A stretch of 64,000 nt of DNA from Mesostigma viride (Eukaryota > Streptophyta > Mesostigmatophyceae > Mesostigmatales > Mesostigmataceae): assembly GCA_009746045.1 (NCBI GenBank), contig RPFO01000016.1:1661920-1725919 (forward strand), given 5' to 3'. The notes under the pieces were generated by a model. The model was not told the origin of the DNA and made no database searches. It was given only the letters and a program-made list of their open reading frames with translations. The translations under genes and the position numbers were made by a program. How positions within the stretch are numbered: the first letter of the stretch is position 1; every line of letters starts with the position of its first letter. Positions 5,970-64,000 of the stretch are shown piece by piece.

Positions 5970-6274
5970 CGGCTGTCTAGAGCCGCTGGCCCCAGTCTAG
6001 ACGTGTGCTCCAAGGCGATGCAGAATGGCGCTGGTACGATTCTGGCTCTATACAGCGCCTTCTGGCTCAATAAGCGCTGTCTGTCGTCAAGAGCGATAGC
6101 ACTTTTATATCGCCGCTGTCGCTCTTCTGCGGACTACGCCGACAGTTGCCTCTCTCTCAGCTTTCTTGATAGAGCCGCAGCTTGATGCAGCCGCTGCAGA
6201 TTGATAGAGCCACTGCATGCACTGCCCCTGTTAACCAGATCGCTCGTAGTGGCTTCACTACCCGCTCAGAGTGT
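5970..6274 (-). repeat. Decayed copies of the ctpA 3' coding end
   Basis: The true end of ctpA on the plus strand reads TCTAGAAGCGCTGGTATAGT (6,274-6,293). Related strings lie downstream at about 5,978-6,010 (CTAGAGCCGCTGGCCCCAGT), 6,028-6,060 (GCGCTGGTACGATTCTGGCT) and 6,155-6,215 (TAGAGCCGCAGC, TAGAGCCACTGC). They look like tandem duplicates of the last coding bases drifting in non-coding DNA. Confidence 0.45.
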
Positions 6275-62900: not shown

Positions 62901-64000
62901 TCAAACAACACCAACAGAGACACCACCGAGCATTACCCCGAATCATATTACCACACACAAAAAAAGGAATATCACAGAAAGACAACCCGAAACAGTACAG
63001 AGATCGCCAAGACTTGAAGAAGAAAATGGGCTGACCCATTTACAGGCATTGCCATGCGAAGCCGTCGGCATAAGTACAGCACTCGCTTCAGGCTTGCGAT
63101 GAGTACAGCGCTTTGCTGCAGGCCTGCAACAGAAAAGATGGGTGCGGCGTCTTCTATAGTTCCAGTGCTGGAGATGTGCGCGCCGTCTTCTTCAGTAGCT
63201 GCTAGGGTAATCATGGGAAACACAGAAGAGAGAAATTCACATAAAGTGGAGTTGGCCAACATTATGGCGAGCCAGCCCCTGTCCAGGGTGCCTTGCCAAG
63301 CAATAGCCCCCCCTGGCAGTCACCGTTGGCCGGCACTTTACAAGGGTTCACTCACCCATCTTCCCCCTGTGAGCGCGCCCCATGCCAGTCCGCCTCCGCC
63401 CGCTCCTCCTCCCCCTCCGCATCCTCCCGTCCCGTCCCCGCAGCCCCCCCCCCGTTGGCCTCCTCCCCCTTGGCATGCTCCGAGTGGCCATAGTGGACCA
63501 GCACGAGGAGGAGGAGGAGGGACAAGTCCGCCAGGGGGCTGACAGGGGCCGTGTGGTGGGCTGTGTGCTGGCTGAATATGAAGTGGTACGCGTGGTACGG
63601 CAGCAGTAGCACCGTGGCTGCCGGGGGTAGAAGAGGGAAGGGGGGGAGGGGGGCGGTCGGGGAGGAGGGGGAAGAAGAGGGGGAGGGAAGGGGGGGGGAG
63701 AAGAGGAGGGGGAAAGAGGGGGGGAGAAGAGGGCGAGGGAGGGAATTTGCAGCACAGGTGTCAGGGTGGGGAAGCGAGAATTTGGGTTGCAGGGTTAGAG
63801 AGCCCGTGGGCAAGTGAGCGGGCACCGGCCTGGGTACTAAAAAAAACAATGGAACAGCCAAAAAATGGAAGGCGAGGATGAACCGCGAAAAATGATAGGC
63901 ACGGAAGAGAACAGGAGGGGTACCCACCAGCAGCGGATGCAACGCAAGCAGCTGACCTTGGGCGCTTGATACACCGAAAAAGAAGAAAACCTGCTCATGT
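53901..64000 (-). CDS. DYM: Dymeclin (DYM), 5' part beyond the window
   Basis: Exons (minus): >64,000-63,928 (partial; its acceptor is not certain); 63,617-63,356; 62,526-62,309; 60,877-60,790; 59,705-59,603; 58,998-58,873; 58,543-58,430; 57,656-57,538; 56,519-55,928; 54,705-54,494; 54,069-53,901. All ten complete junctions are AG..GT and phase-consistent. Family motifs in order: '[12 protein letters not shown]', '[17 protein letters not shown]', '[10 protein letters not shown]', '[20 protein letters not shown]', '[20 protein letters not shown]', '[20 protein letters not shown]', '[20 protein letters not shown]', '[13 protein letters not shown]', '[13 protein letters not shown]', '[20 protein letters not shown]', '[20 protein letters not shown]'. 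Dymeclin is a peripheral Golgi protein needed for Golgi organisation. An unusual His/Asp/Gly-rich insertion of about 100 residues sits inside the 592-nt exon. The last exon adds a Ser/His-rich tail. Confidence 0.9.
54160..54420 (-). repeat. Copies of the dymeclin last-exon acceptor
   Basis: True: CCAGGGGATGCCGCTGCAGG (54,057-54,076). Echoes: 54,167-54,186 (CCAGGGGATGCCGCGGTGAT), 54,264-54,283 (GCAGGGGGTGCCGCCGTGGG) and 54,391-54,415 (GGCAGGGGATGCCGCCTCCT). Spacing is about 100-130 bp. Confidence 0.75.
54720..55345 (-). repeat. Two sets of dymeclin exon 10 acceptor echoes, including a ~100-nt triplicate
   Basis: 54,735-55,010 holds three nearly identical units of about 93 nt (AAGGCAGCATGCCATCCGCT ... 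CACCTGAGATGTACCT). 55,155-55,180 (CCTTGAAGTAGTCAAGCACC) and 55,320-55,345 (CGCACGTTCAAGCGGTCAAG) echo the true TTGAAGTAGTCGAGCACCTG (54,689-54,708). The ~93-nt units also carry a GAGCACGCGCACATGGAAG string like the boundary. Confidence 0.75.
55520..55925 (-). repeat. Copies of the dymeclin exon 9 end plus a 20-nt repeat
   Basis: True: CCCTCACCGTGTACAGGTTG then TCGAGCAGCTCCTTGAAGCG (55,921-55,960). Echoes: 55,850-55,890 (CCCTCACCATGCACAGGCGG, then TCGAGCAGCTCCTTGAACC), 55,759-55,785 (TCTCACCGTGCAGCGGCTGT) and 55,522-55,572 (CCCTCAACGTGTACAGCTTG). Between them, 55,590-55,720 is a CATGAAGCACCATCCAAGCA repeat of 17-20 nt. Confidence 0.8.
57412..57455 (-). repeat. Copy of the dymeclin exon 8 end
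   Basis: CGCGCGCATGTCGAACAGGC, then TGACGAGGCAACG (57,421-57,453), repeats the true coding end CGCGCGAGCATGTCGAACAG, then GCTGACGAGGCGCTG (57,541-57,575), about 120 nt into the intron. The copy has lost a clear donor. Confidence 0.8.
58130..58175 (-). repeat. Copy of the dymeclin exon 7 end
   Basis: TGCGGCAGGTTTTTGACGGT, then GTGGATGAGGGTGG (58,146-58,179), echoes TGCGACAGGTTGTACTTGAC, then CGTGCGGATGAGGATG (58,436-58,471). Confidence 0.65.
58262..58380. repeat. (GA)n microsatellite in dymeclin
   Basis: About 55 GA units, 58,266-58,377, interrupted only at the end. It lies in the intron after exon 7. Confidence 0.95.
58560..58650 (-). repeat. Duplicate of the dymeclin exon 7 acceptor flank
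   Basis: The flank CCTGCATGCAGCGTCGATCA then TGCAATTGATAAAC (58,543-58,576) is repeated at 58,622-58,655 as CCTGCATGCAGCGTCGATCA, then TGCCATAAATTC. Both copies keep the acceptor (CTGCATGCAG on the minus strand). Confidence 0.8.
58779..58840. repeat. (CA)n(CG)n alternating purine-pyrimidine tract
   Basis: (CACA)n runs directly into CGCGCGCGCGCGCGCGCG, 58,815-58,833. Such a tract is prone to Z-DNA. It is 40 nt from the dymeclin exon 6 donor. Confidence 0.9.
59310..59521. repeat. (CCCA)n microsatellite in dymeclin
   Basis: About 53 units with few interruptions, in the intron after exon 5. Flanked by the duplicated CGTGCCGAGATCAC string (59,228 and 59,522). Confidence 0.95.
60630..60789 (-). 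repeat. Copies of the dymeclin exon 4 donor region
   Basis: The true donor (plus TTAGACTCACATCCCGATGG, 60,780-60,799) is echoed by TATACTCACATCCCAAAATT (60,630-60,649), TATACTCACAATCATCATGA (60,650-60,669) and AAGACTCACAATCATCATGA (60,717-60,736). The last two start a 66-nt direct duplication (ATCATGATCGTGTCTTGCTT ...). Confidence 0.75.
61200..61885. repeat. 45-nt minisatellite (about 15 copies) in dymeclin
   Basis: Unit AGCTTTGACAAAGACTACAC then AAAGGTTTGCAGGAAAACGA and AGGGC. Being a multiple of three, it leaves a 287-codon plus-strand frame that is not a gene. It lies in the intron between exons 3 and 4. Confidence 0.9.
61990..62308 (-). repeat. Array of dymeclin exon 3 end copies
   Basis: True: CACTCACATTCGCTGTCCCG then CAGCGAGGCGATGGCCGACC (62,302-62,341). 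Echoes about 100 nt apart: 62,200 (CACTCACATTCGCTGTCCCG, then CGGTGATGGCGGAACGG), 62,095 (ACGCACATTCGCTGTCCAGC) and 61,993 (CGCTCACATTCGCTGCCCCG). The donor context is retained in at least two. After each, ACGGGTTTGCAAGTTA-like sequence mirrors coding 'AACGGGTTCGCGGCC'. Confidence 0.85.

Follow-up and report, generated by a model that had tools for sequence, protein, structure and literature searches.

Local copies of exon ends in the non-coding DNA beside Mesostigma viride exons

Introduction

The question of how introns grow longer is an old one, and few direct traces of the process exist. The stretch of Mesostigma viride DNA analysed here (64,000 nucleotides in all, hereafter the window) raises it in a concrete form, as the ends of exons in the genes ctpA, HPAT and DYM recur as decayed direct copies, here termed echoes, in the adjacent non-coding DNA. 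In each such pair selection holds the exon fixed, so that it serves as a reference from which the age, size and limits of insertions close by can be judged. Intron growth can thereby be measured in individual genes, and the trace is present at about one in four of the junctions sampled. The questions addressed are how far the echoes exceed chance, how they are built and which process is likely to have produced them.

Gene models and samples

The gene models comprise six exons for ctpA, at least ten for HPAT and, within the window, ten for DYM. All 23 modelled introns have GT-AG borders, and the frames stay open once the exons are joined. The products match the Pfam families Peptidase_S41 (3.6e-48), HPAT (1.1e-107) and Dymeclin (4.2e-136), respectively. 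Two more samples were taken from the same genome, namely nine chaperonin loci (135 junctions) and a set of flanking genes (74 junctions). The gene finder with exon chaining that was used recovered, in its two versions, 18 and 19 exons of the 26 known in the window with exact boundaries. By eye count, 45 of the 77 chaperonin exons used overlap an HMM match in frame and 32 come from the gene finder alone. The Pfam check of the flanking genes covered parts of each gene (of the 14 S9-peptidase exons, roughly the last three), and four PGM exons in the flank count lie outside the Pfam-scanned protein. Two chaperonin copies were compared by block alignments, the whole-locus MAFFT alignment being poor. 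The chaperonin count excludes all of L028 (a copy of L027) and the start sides of L025 exon 1874 and L031 exon 8195; the flank count excludes junctions without AG/GT or beside N runs, and the flank size-class scan excludes introns longer than 2600 nt.

Echoes were sought in direct orientation, with queries of up to 60 exon and 40 intron nt run against the adjacent non-coding DNA. For the window the null was provided by the introns of other genes (1760 controls). The straddling query skips the first 40 intron nt in the window, chaperonin and flank junction counts, so that small spacings are under-counted there; the size-class scans and the flank nearest-copy list have no such gap.

Frequency of the echoes

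Exon-end echoes are real and lie far above chance in all three gene samples (window features in Table 1). In the window a local copy with a score of at least 26 is found at 25 of 52 exon boundaries against 0.68 expected. At score 32 there are still 19 of 52, a level reached by none of the controls in unrelated introns that the preliminary description had proposed. Its figure of about 20 boundaries is borne out by the 22 of 52 at which the copy includes 12 or more exon nt (counted by eye from the match list); this leaves out intron-only matches at the HPAT E5 and DYM D1 acceptors and a 2-nt case at the ctpA E3 donor. The chaperonin loci carry echoes at 32 of 135 junctions (1.15 expected) and the flanking genes at 22 of 74 (0.15 expected). 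The restriction of echoes to the non-coding side, also claimed earlier, agrees with the match rate of 50-nt queries from exon interiors, which at score 24 is 0.000 in the window and 0.018 in the chaperonins.

The further statement that every intron-containing gene is affected fails outside the window. At score 28 no echoes were found at the 28 junctions of the S9-peptidase gene in the flank sample or at the 16 junctions of chaperonin L027; the former value may partly reflect wrong exon edges, because the Pfam check covered few of its exons. Echoes follow the stop codon at three of six stops with a target and precede the start codon at none of five, as expected, in these small numbers, if the extra copy must be invisible.

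Table 1. Exons and echoes of ctpA, HPAT and DYM in window coordinates
Feature	Position	Strand	Basis	Score
ctpA exon E3	10173..10466	(-)	gene model, Pfam	
echo of ctpA E3 acceptor	10608..10661	(-)		27
ctpA exon E4	8885..8973	(-)	gene model	
echo of ctpA E4 acceptor	9371..9436	(-)		52
second echo of ctpA E4 acceptor	9662..9695	(-)		33
ctpA exon E5	7577..8092	(-)	gene model	
echo 1 of ctpA E5 donor	7456..7524	(-)		58
echo 2 of ctpA E5 donor	7379..7438	(-)		70
echo 3 of ctpA E5 donor	7191..7216	(-)		37
ctpA exon E6	6275..6526	(-)	gene model	
echo of ctpA E6 acceptor	6797..6839	(-)		34
HPAT exon E4	39637..39735	(-)	gene model	
echo of HPAT E4 acceptor	40036..40057	(-)		34
echo of HPAT E4 acceptor	39945..39977	(-)		26
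HPAT exon E5	37961..38091	(-)	gene model	
echo near HPAT E5 donor, exon part only	37848..37870	(-)		36
HPAT exon E6	37152..37302	(-)	gene model	
echo of HPAT E6 acceptor	37694..37712	(-)		28
HPAT exon E7	36135..36309	(-)	gene model	
echo 1 of HPAT E7 acceptor	36385..36427	(-)	alignment	53
echo 3 of HPAT E7 acceptor	36559..36597	(-)	alignment	38
echo 4 of HPAT E7 acceptor	36668..36704	(-)	alignment	44
HPAT exon E8	35607..35789	(-)	gene model	
echo of HPAT E8 acceptor, exon part 0.97 identical	35849..35901	(-)		86
echo near HPAT E8 donor, exon part only	35443..35474	(-)		44
HPAT exon E9	34809..34902	(-)	gene model	
echo 1 of HPAT E9 acceptor	34966..35000	(-)	alignment	45
echo 2 of HPAT E9 acceptor	35052..35080	(-)	alignment	31
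echo 3 of HPAT E9 acceptor	35131..35172	(-)	alignment	42
DYM exon D2	62309..62526	(-)	gene model	
echo of DYM D2 acceptor	62659..62702	(-)		47
echo 1 of DYM D2 donor	62185..62246	(-)		86
echo 2 of DYM D2 donor	62066..62147	(-)		66
echo 3 of DYM D2 donor	61997..62017	(-)		37
echo of DYM D3 donor (weak)	60066..60101	(-)		32
echo of DYM D4 donor (weak)	59217..59254	(-)		26
DYM exon D6	58430..58543	(-)	gene model	
echo of DYM D6 acceptor	58607..58648	(-)		57
echo of DYM D6 donor side	58144..58195	(-)		52
DYM exon D7	57538..57656	(-)	gene model	
echo of DYM D7 donor	57404..57449	(-)		56
DYM exon D8	55928..56519	(-)	gene model	
echo 1 of DYM D8 donor	55846..55887	(-)	alignment	59
echo 2 of DYM D8 donor	55759..55784	(-)	alignment	27
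echo 3 of DYM D8 donor	55524..55572	(-)	alignment	57
DYM exon D9	54494..54705	(-)	gene model	
echo of DYM D9 acceptor	55152..55177	(-)		37
echo of DYM D9 acceptor (weak)	55318..55360	(-)		29
DYM last exon D10	53901..54069	(-)	gene model	
echo of DYM D10 acceptor	54155..54178	(-)		43
echo of DYM D10 acceptor (weak)	54255..54309	(-)		29
echo 1 behind DYM stop codon	53777..53826	(-)	alignment	35
further echo behind DYM stop codon	53471..53518	(-)	alignment	34

Structure of the echoes

Copies with at least 15 exon nt, taken over all sampled genes, lie at a median spacing of 108 nt (interquartile 88–128; about 60–205 nt searched), and the earlier range of 75–130 nt is a fair description. Their exon part has a median length of 30 nt (interquartile 24–37), exceeds 60 nt in just 4 of 61 and has a median identity to the exon of 0.83. 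Most arrays in the window hold no more than three or four copies at a boundary, and the nearest echo is the best-scoring in 8 of 10 arrays. The echoes near the E5 and E8 donors of HPAT consist of the exon part only.

Mismatches between exon and echo fall at codon positions 1, 2 and 3 with frequencies of 0.139, 0.112 and 0.224 in the window and, similarly, 0.103, 0.126 and 0.199 in the chaperonins, as would result from an exon that changes mostly at third positions and an echo that drifts. The shift of the echo is in frame in 22 of 61, and therefore there is no frame selection.

On the intron side of the 12 best-preserved junction copies, similarity falls to 0.49 by positions +12 to +20; in 18 well-preserved pairs from intron interiors it stays at 0.84 or above out to +45. 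The intron remainder is clearly copied in 16 of 48, and blocks extend more than 40 nt into the intron in 14 of 44. The ratio of block to shift is 0.50 at junctions and 0.57 inside introns. In the alignment of the HPAT E9 echoes the polypyrimidine stretch seems to be copied as well.

Exon edges and intron interiors

With all repeat sizes pooled, copies are found at rates of 0.38 at junctions and 0.33 in intron interiors in the window, and of 0.148 and 0.140 in the chaperonins. Straddling events number 20 against 15.2 expected from the intron rate, and the same-intron test gives 38 against 26.5 expected (SD 3.7), a 1.4-fold edge excess. The reading that junctions are no richer than introns held for pooled sizes only and was revised after the size-class split. 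Repeat units shorter than 60 nt are most frequent deep inside introns and less so at exon edges. The class of about 108 nt has a rate of 0.275 at junctions against 0.042 inside the same introns (162 paired ends), making it about six times denser at exon edges (interval 3.4–14.3). In this test 219 of 245 ends were kept and 162 were paired, those dropped having too few usable queries. The class is present at 55 of the 219 sampled ends, about a quarter with short arrays excluded, and equally on both sides (donors 29/112, acceptors 26/107). HPAT taken alone has no edge excess (0.18 at junctions, 0.146 inside introns). The size classes were defined once the data had been inspected; the flanking genes, a fresh sample that had no part in finding the size difference, reproduce it.

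Simulated better visibility at exon edges amounts to 1.22-fold for uniform ages and to 1.0–1.9 for ages up to 0.30. Intron positions +5 to +60, at which drift may affect both copies, are enriched 2.98-fold above the interior (2.03–4.74; 156 ends). Contiguous duplication at random, followed by passive survival, does not account for everything, because of the edge excess of the 108-nt class, the enrichment at +5 to +60 and the fading of the junction copies.

Origin of the echoes

It is somewhat probable, in our judgement, that small local duplications arise continually, most likely during the repair of DNA breaks, and that the echoes are those that have survived. One lying wholly within coding sequence would presumably damage the protein and be lost, and one spanning a coding edge would be harmless when the extra copy falls in an intron or behind the stop codon; in the intron this is because splicing could still use the outer site. 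Selection would then hold the exon copy, which keeps the event readable, and the echo would drift. Recurring events would yield arrays of several copies.

The preliminary description had offered as its null that duplication happens everywhere and is kept where selection is weak. Put plainly, tandem duplication would be uniform in non-coding DNA and the echoes recognisable for longer because the exon copy is conserved, which we regard as rather unlikely. It roughly fits the pooled rates of window and chaperonins and the count of straddling events; the 1.4-fold same-intron excess is what slower exon change could give, HPAT alone agrees with it, and large ratios could come from bursts that date back more than about 0.3 changes per site per copy. 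It does not fit the edge density of the 108-nt class, which exceeds the simulated visibility, the enrichment of the neutral intron beside the junction, or the replication in the flanking genes. A tentative possibility is instead a process tied to the exon edge, in which a break or a stall in synthesis near a coding edge is repaired by copying about 40 nt of the exon end; the product would be a short copy some 100 nt away, separated by unrelated spacer, and not a contiguous tandem duplication. The short exon parts, the fading of the best-preserved copies (12 events) some 12 nt beyond the exon, the few clearly copied intron remainders and the peak of the 108-nt class at the junction all point this way. 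The blocks that reach beyond 40 nt into the intron, a block-to-spacing ratio near that of interior pairs and the apparently copied polypyrimidine stretch of HPAT E9 argue against it; the echoes behind stops mean that a splice site is not required, and there is no known reason for the copied piece to end at the junction. Were such a process to act repeatedly, writing about 40 nt of exon end with the splice signal some 100 nt into non-coding DNA, introns could grow outward like rings, a picture that we hold to be doubtful.

That the echoes are kept for a function, perhaps that of splice-site decoys or reserves, is very unlikely. Their spacing is fairly regular, and 52 of the 60 aligned echoes retain the splice dinucleotides, compared with 0.703 for other dinucleotides (naive P 0.003), but a single array (L025) supplies several of these 60 and alignments are biased towards their own middle. 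Moreover, the codon-position and frame data look neutral, echoes also stand behind stop codons and some genes have none. Least probable is that the introns arose, as had been suggested, when an exon segment containing AGGT was duplicated in tandem, a model in print with single cases (in the parts of PMC4974935 and PMC2891723 drawn on here). The resemblance that it predicts, of the end of exon 1 to the 3' end of the intron and of the start of exon 2 to its 5' end, scored in 1 of 46 comparisons, whereas near-side resemblance scored in 13 of 46 (null 0.0022), although old events could have decayed beyond recognition. This difference suggests that most echoes were made after the introns existed and are probably younger than them.

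Returning to the favoured stream of local duplications, the earlier proposal that introns grew by copying holds up. Lengthening of introns by local copying is supported by near copies of 31–39% of 40-nt windows in the introns of the window, against 12–12.5% outside spliced genes and 1–3% for distant control targets. In two 98%-identical stretches (three aligned blocks, 6.9 kb) all five indels of at least 12 nt adjoin a local copy, one of them being a microsatellite and each being a possible gain or loss. The recent duplications seen as indels count against the favoured reading in that they measure 16–49 nt, short of about 100, and are not known to lie at a junction. A 43-bp duplication in L028 was considered as a junction event; a better model places it inside the intron, about 225 nt from the acceptor. 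The intron arrays at 38118–38688, 42130–42588 and 61200–61882 are minisatellite-like with no exon sequence visible by eye. The echoes may record how introns grew, and they point to local copying clustered at exon edges. Coding edges may be places where mutation is especially frequent, or they may simply preserve its traces better; the edge excess raises this question.

Comparison with known systems

Among the literature matches listed there is no description of recurrent exon-end copies in introns, and no relatives were found among viral contigs. Exon-edge queries seldom match the introns of other genes, the rates being 0.013 in the window (score 26) and, at score 28, 0.0085 in the chaperonins and 0.0020 in the flanking genes; introner-type elements would be expected to share sequence between such introns. 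Tandem exon duplication, which would copy a whole exon with both splice sites, was rejected on the short exon part. An intronic minisatellite was similarly rejected on the low copy number and the median identity, the L025 donor array (96/48 nt) being an exception. Intronic minisatellites also occur in these introns, but their units of less than 60 nt favour the deep intron, the reverse of the echoes.

Small tandem duplications are also known from indel surveys in rice and human. In the part of the work on break repair considered here, they arise from that repair (PMC8355091). The echoes resemble those duplications in being direct, short and adjoining their source, and local copies are the commonest longer indels here as well (5/5 in the three blocks). 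They differ from what that part describes in that one spacing class is concentrated on coding edges (55/219 ends) and in that copies are often shorter than their spacing (block/shift 0.50). In potato RdRp a tandem duplication across an intron–exon boundary created a new intron in one case (PMC4974935, in the section used), unlike the many decayed copies inside existing introns seen here. Intron sliding or gain by tandem duplication, with exonic copies becoming introns, is described for Drosophila (PMC2891723, likewise in part). There too exonic DNA beside splice sites is duplicated, but the resemblance in M. viride is on the near side and not across the intron.

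Gene models and samples

The window sits on contig C1768 of a 440 Mb genome in 2243 contigs. Models were built for three spliced genes on its minus strand; all of their introns are GT-AG, the reading frames are open and the models are concordant with Pfam. Their introns are long (median 842 nt, n=23). The GTGGGT/GTGAGT donors, together with a gene content that includes HPAT and ctpA, may point to a green alga. Chaperonin exons elsewhere in the genome were found with a Pfam model, and gene models were built for nine separate loci. This sample contributes 77 exons, of which 45 coincide at least in part with an HMM hit and 32 are supported by the gene finder alone. 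A chaperonin locus is present in two near-identical copies, L028 and L027 (contigs C1641 and C887), one of which has a 3.1-kb insert in an intron. The flank sample, from the contig outside the window, consists of five genes or gene parts with partial Pfam coverage (UDPGP, PGM, acyl-CoA dehydrogenase, Dymeclin and Peptidase_S9).

Features located in the window
Feature	Position	Strand	Unit	Remark
LINE-like first ORF	18514-19968	+		A guess; no Pfam hit
Pieces resembling the LINE-like ORF	near 1000-3200, 30900-31400, 48000-51200			By eye
Minisatellite	38118-38688		38 bp
Minisatellite	40832-41176		48 bp
HPAT exon 3	41421-41689			Most of a PAN_4-like domain, ahead of the arabinosyltransferase domain; match below family cut-off
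Minisatellite	42130-42588		46 bp
Array upstream of the acceptor of DYM exon D9	54725-55000		92 bp x3	Apparently includes some of the start of exon D9 (by eye)
Minisatellite	61200-61882		45 bp

Copies of exon ends in adjoining non-coding DNA

A query formed from the exon end and the intron start was compared with the adjacent non-coding DNA, and a copy (an 'echo') was found at 25 of the 52 boundaries in the window. The introns of other genes, used as a control, give an expectation of 0.68, which upholds the preliminary description in its claim that ctpA, HPAT and DYM contain copies of their exon ends. Copies containing at least 12 exon nt were counted by eye at 22/52 boundaries, and in the four arrays that were aligned, that behind the DYM stop codon among them, the copies are plain. 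Echoes are also present at 32/135 chaperonin junctions at score 28 (1.15 expected) and at 22/74 junctions of the flank genes (0.15 expected).

Echo frequency is strongly gene-dependent. Phosphoglucomutase (11/19) and the chaperonin locus L031 (9/16) are rich in echoes, and none was found at the 28 junctions of the S9 peptidase or the 16 of L027. The S9-peptidase gene lies in a part of the contig that is nearly without local repeats, upstream of the window at a distance of about 82-110 kb. Donor and acceptor ends have similar rates (29/112 versus 26/107), and echoes were seen at stop codons in three of six cases with a target and at start codons in none of five.

Pooled over repeat sizes, local copies are only weakly tied to exon edges. 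The rates at junctions and intron interiors are 0.38 and 0.33 in the window and 0.148 and 0.140 in the chaperonins; 20 pooled junction events compare with 15.2 predicted from the intron rate, and a same-intron test of 178 junctions gave 38 against 26.5 expected (SD 3.7). Local copies are sparser in intergenic DNA of the window (0.084); along the contig, however, their density per 4 kb varies between 0 and 0.66, and they therefore extend beyond genes.

Two stretches of the genome are about 98% identical across three aligned blocks (6.9 kb). Within these blocks they differ by 13 indels of at least 5 nt. Five are of at least 12 nt (16-49 nt, one a microsatellite), all with a copy alongside. A local duplication process seems to be alive, although each of the five may be either a gain or a loss and none is placed at a junction.

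Two size classes and the exon edge

The repeats were divided by size only after a first look at the data. The nearest copy of an exon end lies at 85-135 nt in 14/21 cases, while repeat clusters in intron interiors are mostly short (69/129 at 20-55 nt, 21/129 at 85-135 nt). The flank genes, a sample independent of that first look, repeat the split, with 8/11 nearest copies at 88-138 nt and none under 60 nt. When 245 junction ends are taken together, repeats of 80-140 nt have a rate of 0.073 at the last exon bases, about 0.009 at +15 to +60 nt into the intron and 0.002-0.004 beyond +250; units below 60 nt show the opposite trend, from 0.009-0.028 near the edge to 0.073-0.116 beyond +250. The introns of HPAT and DYM also contain clean large minisatellites, with a 92-99% match between copies.

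A refined scan, with a more sensitive query, short arrays removed and spacings of 70-150 nt, gave 0.254 at the junction (55/219 ends), 0.11-0.12 at +5 to +60 and 0.05-0.06 at +100 to +400. Between +400 and +700 the rate is 0.044, and past +700 it is 0.090; the controls are at 0.000-0.004. For the same spacings, a paired test of 162 intron ends gave 0.275 at junctions versus 0.042 in interiors (bootstrap over gene labels: difference 0.134-0.344, ratio 3.4-14.3), and none of 20000 sign flips was as large. Among the individual genes, DYM, PGM, UDPGP and the chaperonin loci L024, L025 and L031 show a clear excess; it is not clear in HPAT (0.18 at junctions versus 0.146 inside introns) and is absent from L027 and the S9 peptidase.

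Such an excess could reflect better visibility, the conserved exon copy keeping exon echoes readable for longer. Simulated visibility ratios, obtained with one set of rates, are 1.22 with uniform ages and 1.0-1.9 for ages up to 0.30 changes per site; they are far higher only for older bursts. The intron stretch adjoining the junction, which has no such conservation advantage, still exceeds the interior by a factor of 2.98 (2.03-4.74) over 156 ends, and slower loss of exon-anchored copies could, by reasoning, add about two-fold at most. For these reasons we think that the exon-edge excess of the class spaced by about 108 nt is real, although the simulation had a single set of rates and the classes were drawn post hoc.

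Anatomy and drift of the copies

With at least 15 exon nt required, 61 of 239 tested ends have a copy, in which the exon part has a median of 30 nt (interquartile 24-37) and the spacing is 108 nt (88-128). Exon parts above 60 nt are rare (4/61), unlike what a 100-nt unit with random ends would give. The 12 junction copies with exon identity of at least 0.90 lose similarity quickly: it is 0.97 at the exon edge, 0.72 between +6 and +12 and 0.49 between +12 and +20, whereas 18 well-preserved interior pairs keep at least 0.84 out to +45; the contrast is milder among less well preserved copies. The copied block extends a median of 22 nt (9-44) into the intron in 44 junction events, exceeding 40 nt in 14, and the remainder of the unit is also clearly copied in 16/48. 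Full tandem duplications and short copies therefore seem to coexist.

It is the echo that drifts. Mismatches between exon and echo amount to 0.10-0.14 for the first two codon positions and to 0.20-0.22 for the third, and 22/61 echo shifts are in frame. Splice dinucleotides are retained in 52/60 aligned echoes versus 0.703 elsewhere, a suggestive value, but one that is raised by several copies coming from a single array and by the alignment itself. The 92-bp array near D9 may be an echo that was itself amplified.

Origin of the echoes and comparison with known duplications

We favour, with moderate confidence, the reading that the echoes are break-repair duplications filtered by selection. Duplications within exons would be lost, and those across an exon edge would persist on the non-coding side; this would explain the one-sidedness, the donor-acceptor symmetry, the echoes at stops without those at starts, the arrays and the drift of the echo. 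It accounts neither for the edge excess at about 108 nt nor for the shortness of the copied block, and these two features would allow for a process favouring exon edges.

Among the literature matches listed, recurrent exon-end copies are not described. Long introns are a topic of a comparative study on relatives of Chlamydomonas, and the passages considered contain no traces of exon-end copies of the kind seen here (PMC8226300). Small tandem duplications are described as common insertions that originate at breaks (PMC8355091), duplication across an intron-exon boundary is in print as single cases (PMC4974935), and exonic duplication has been reported to lead to intron gain (PMC2891723).
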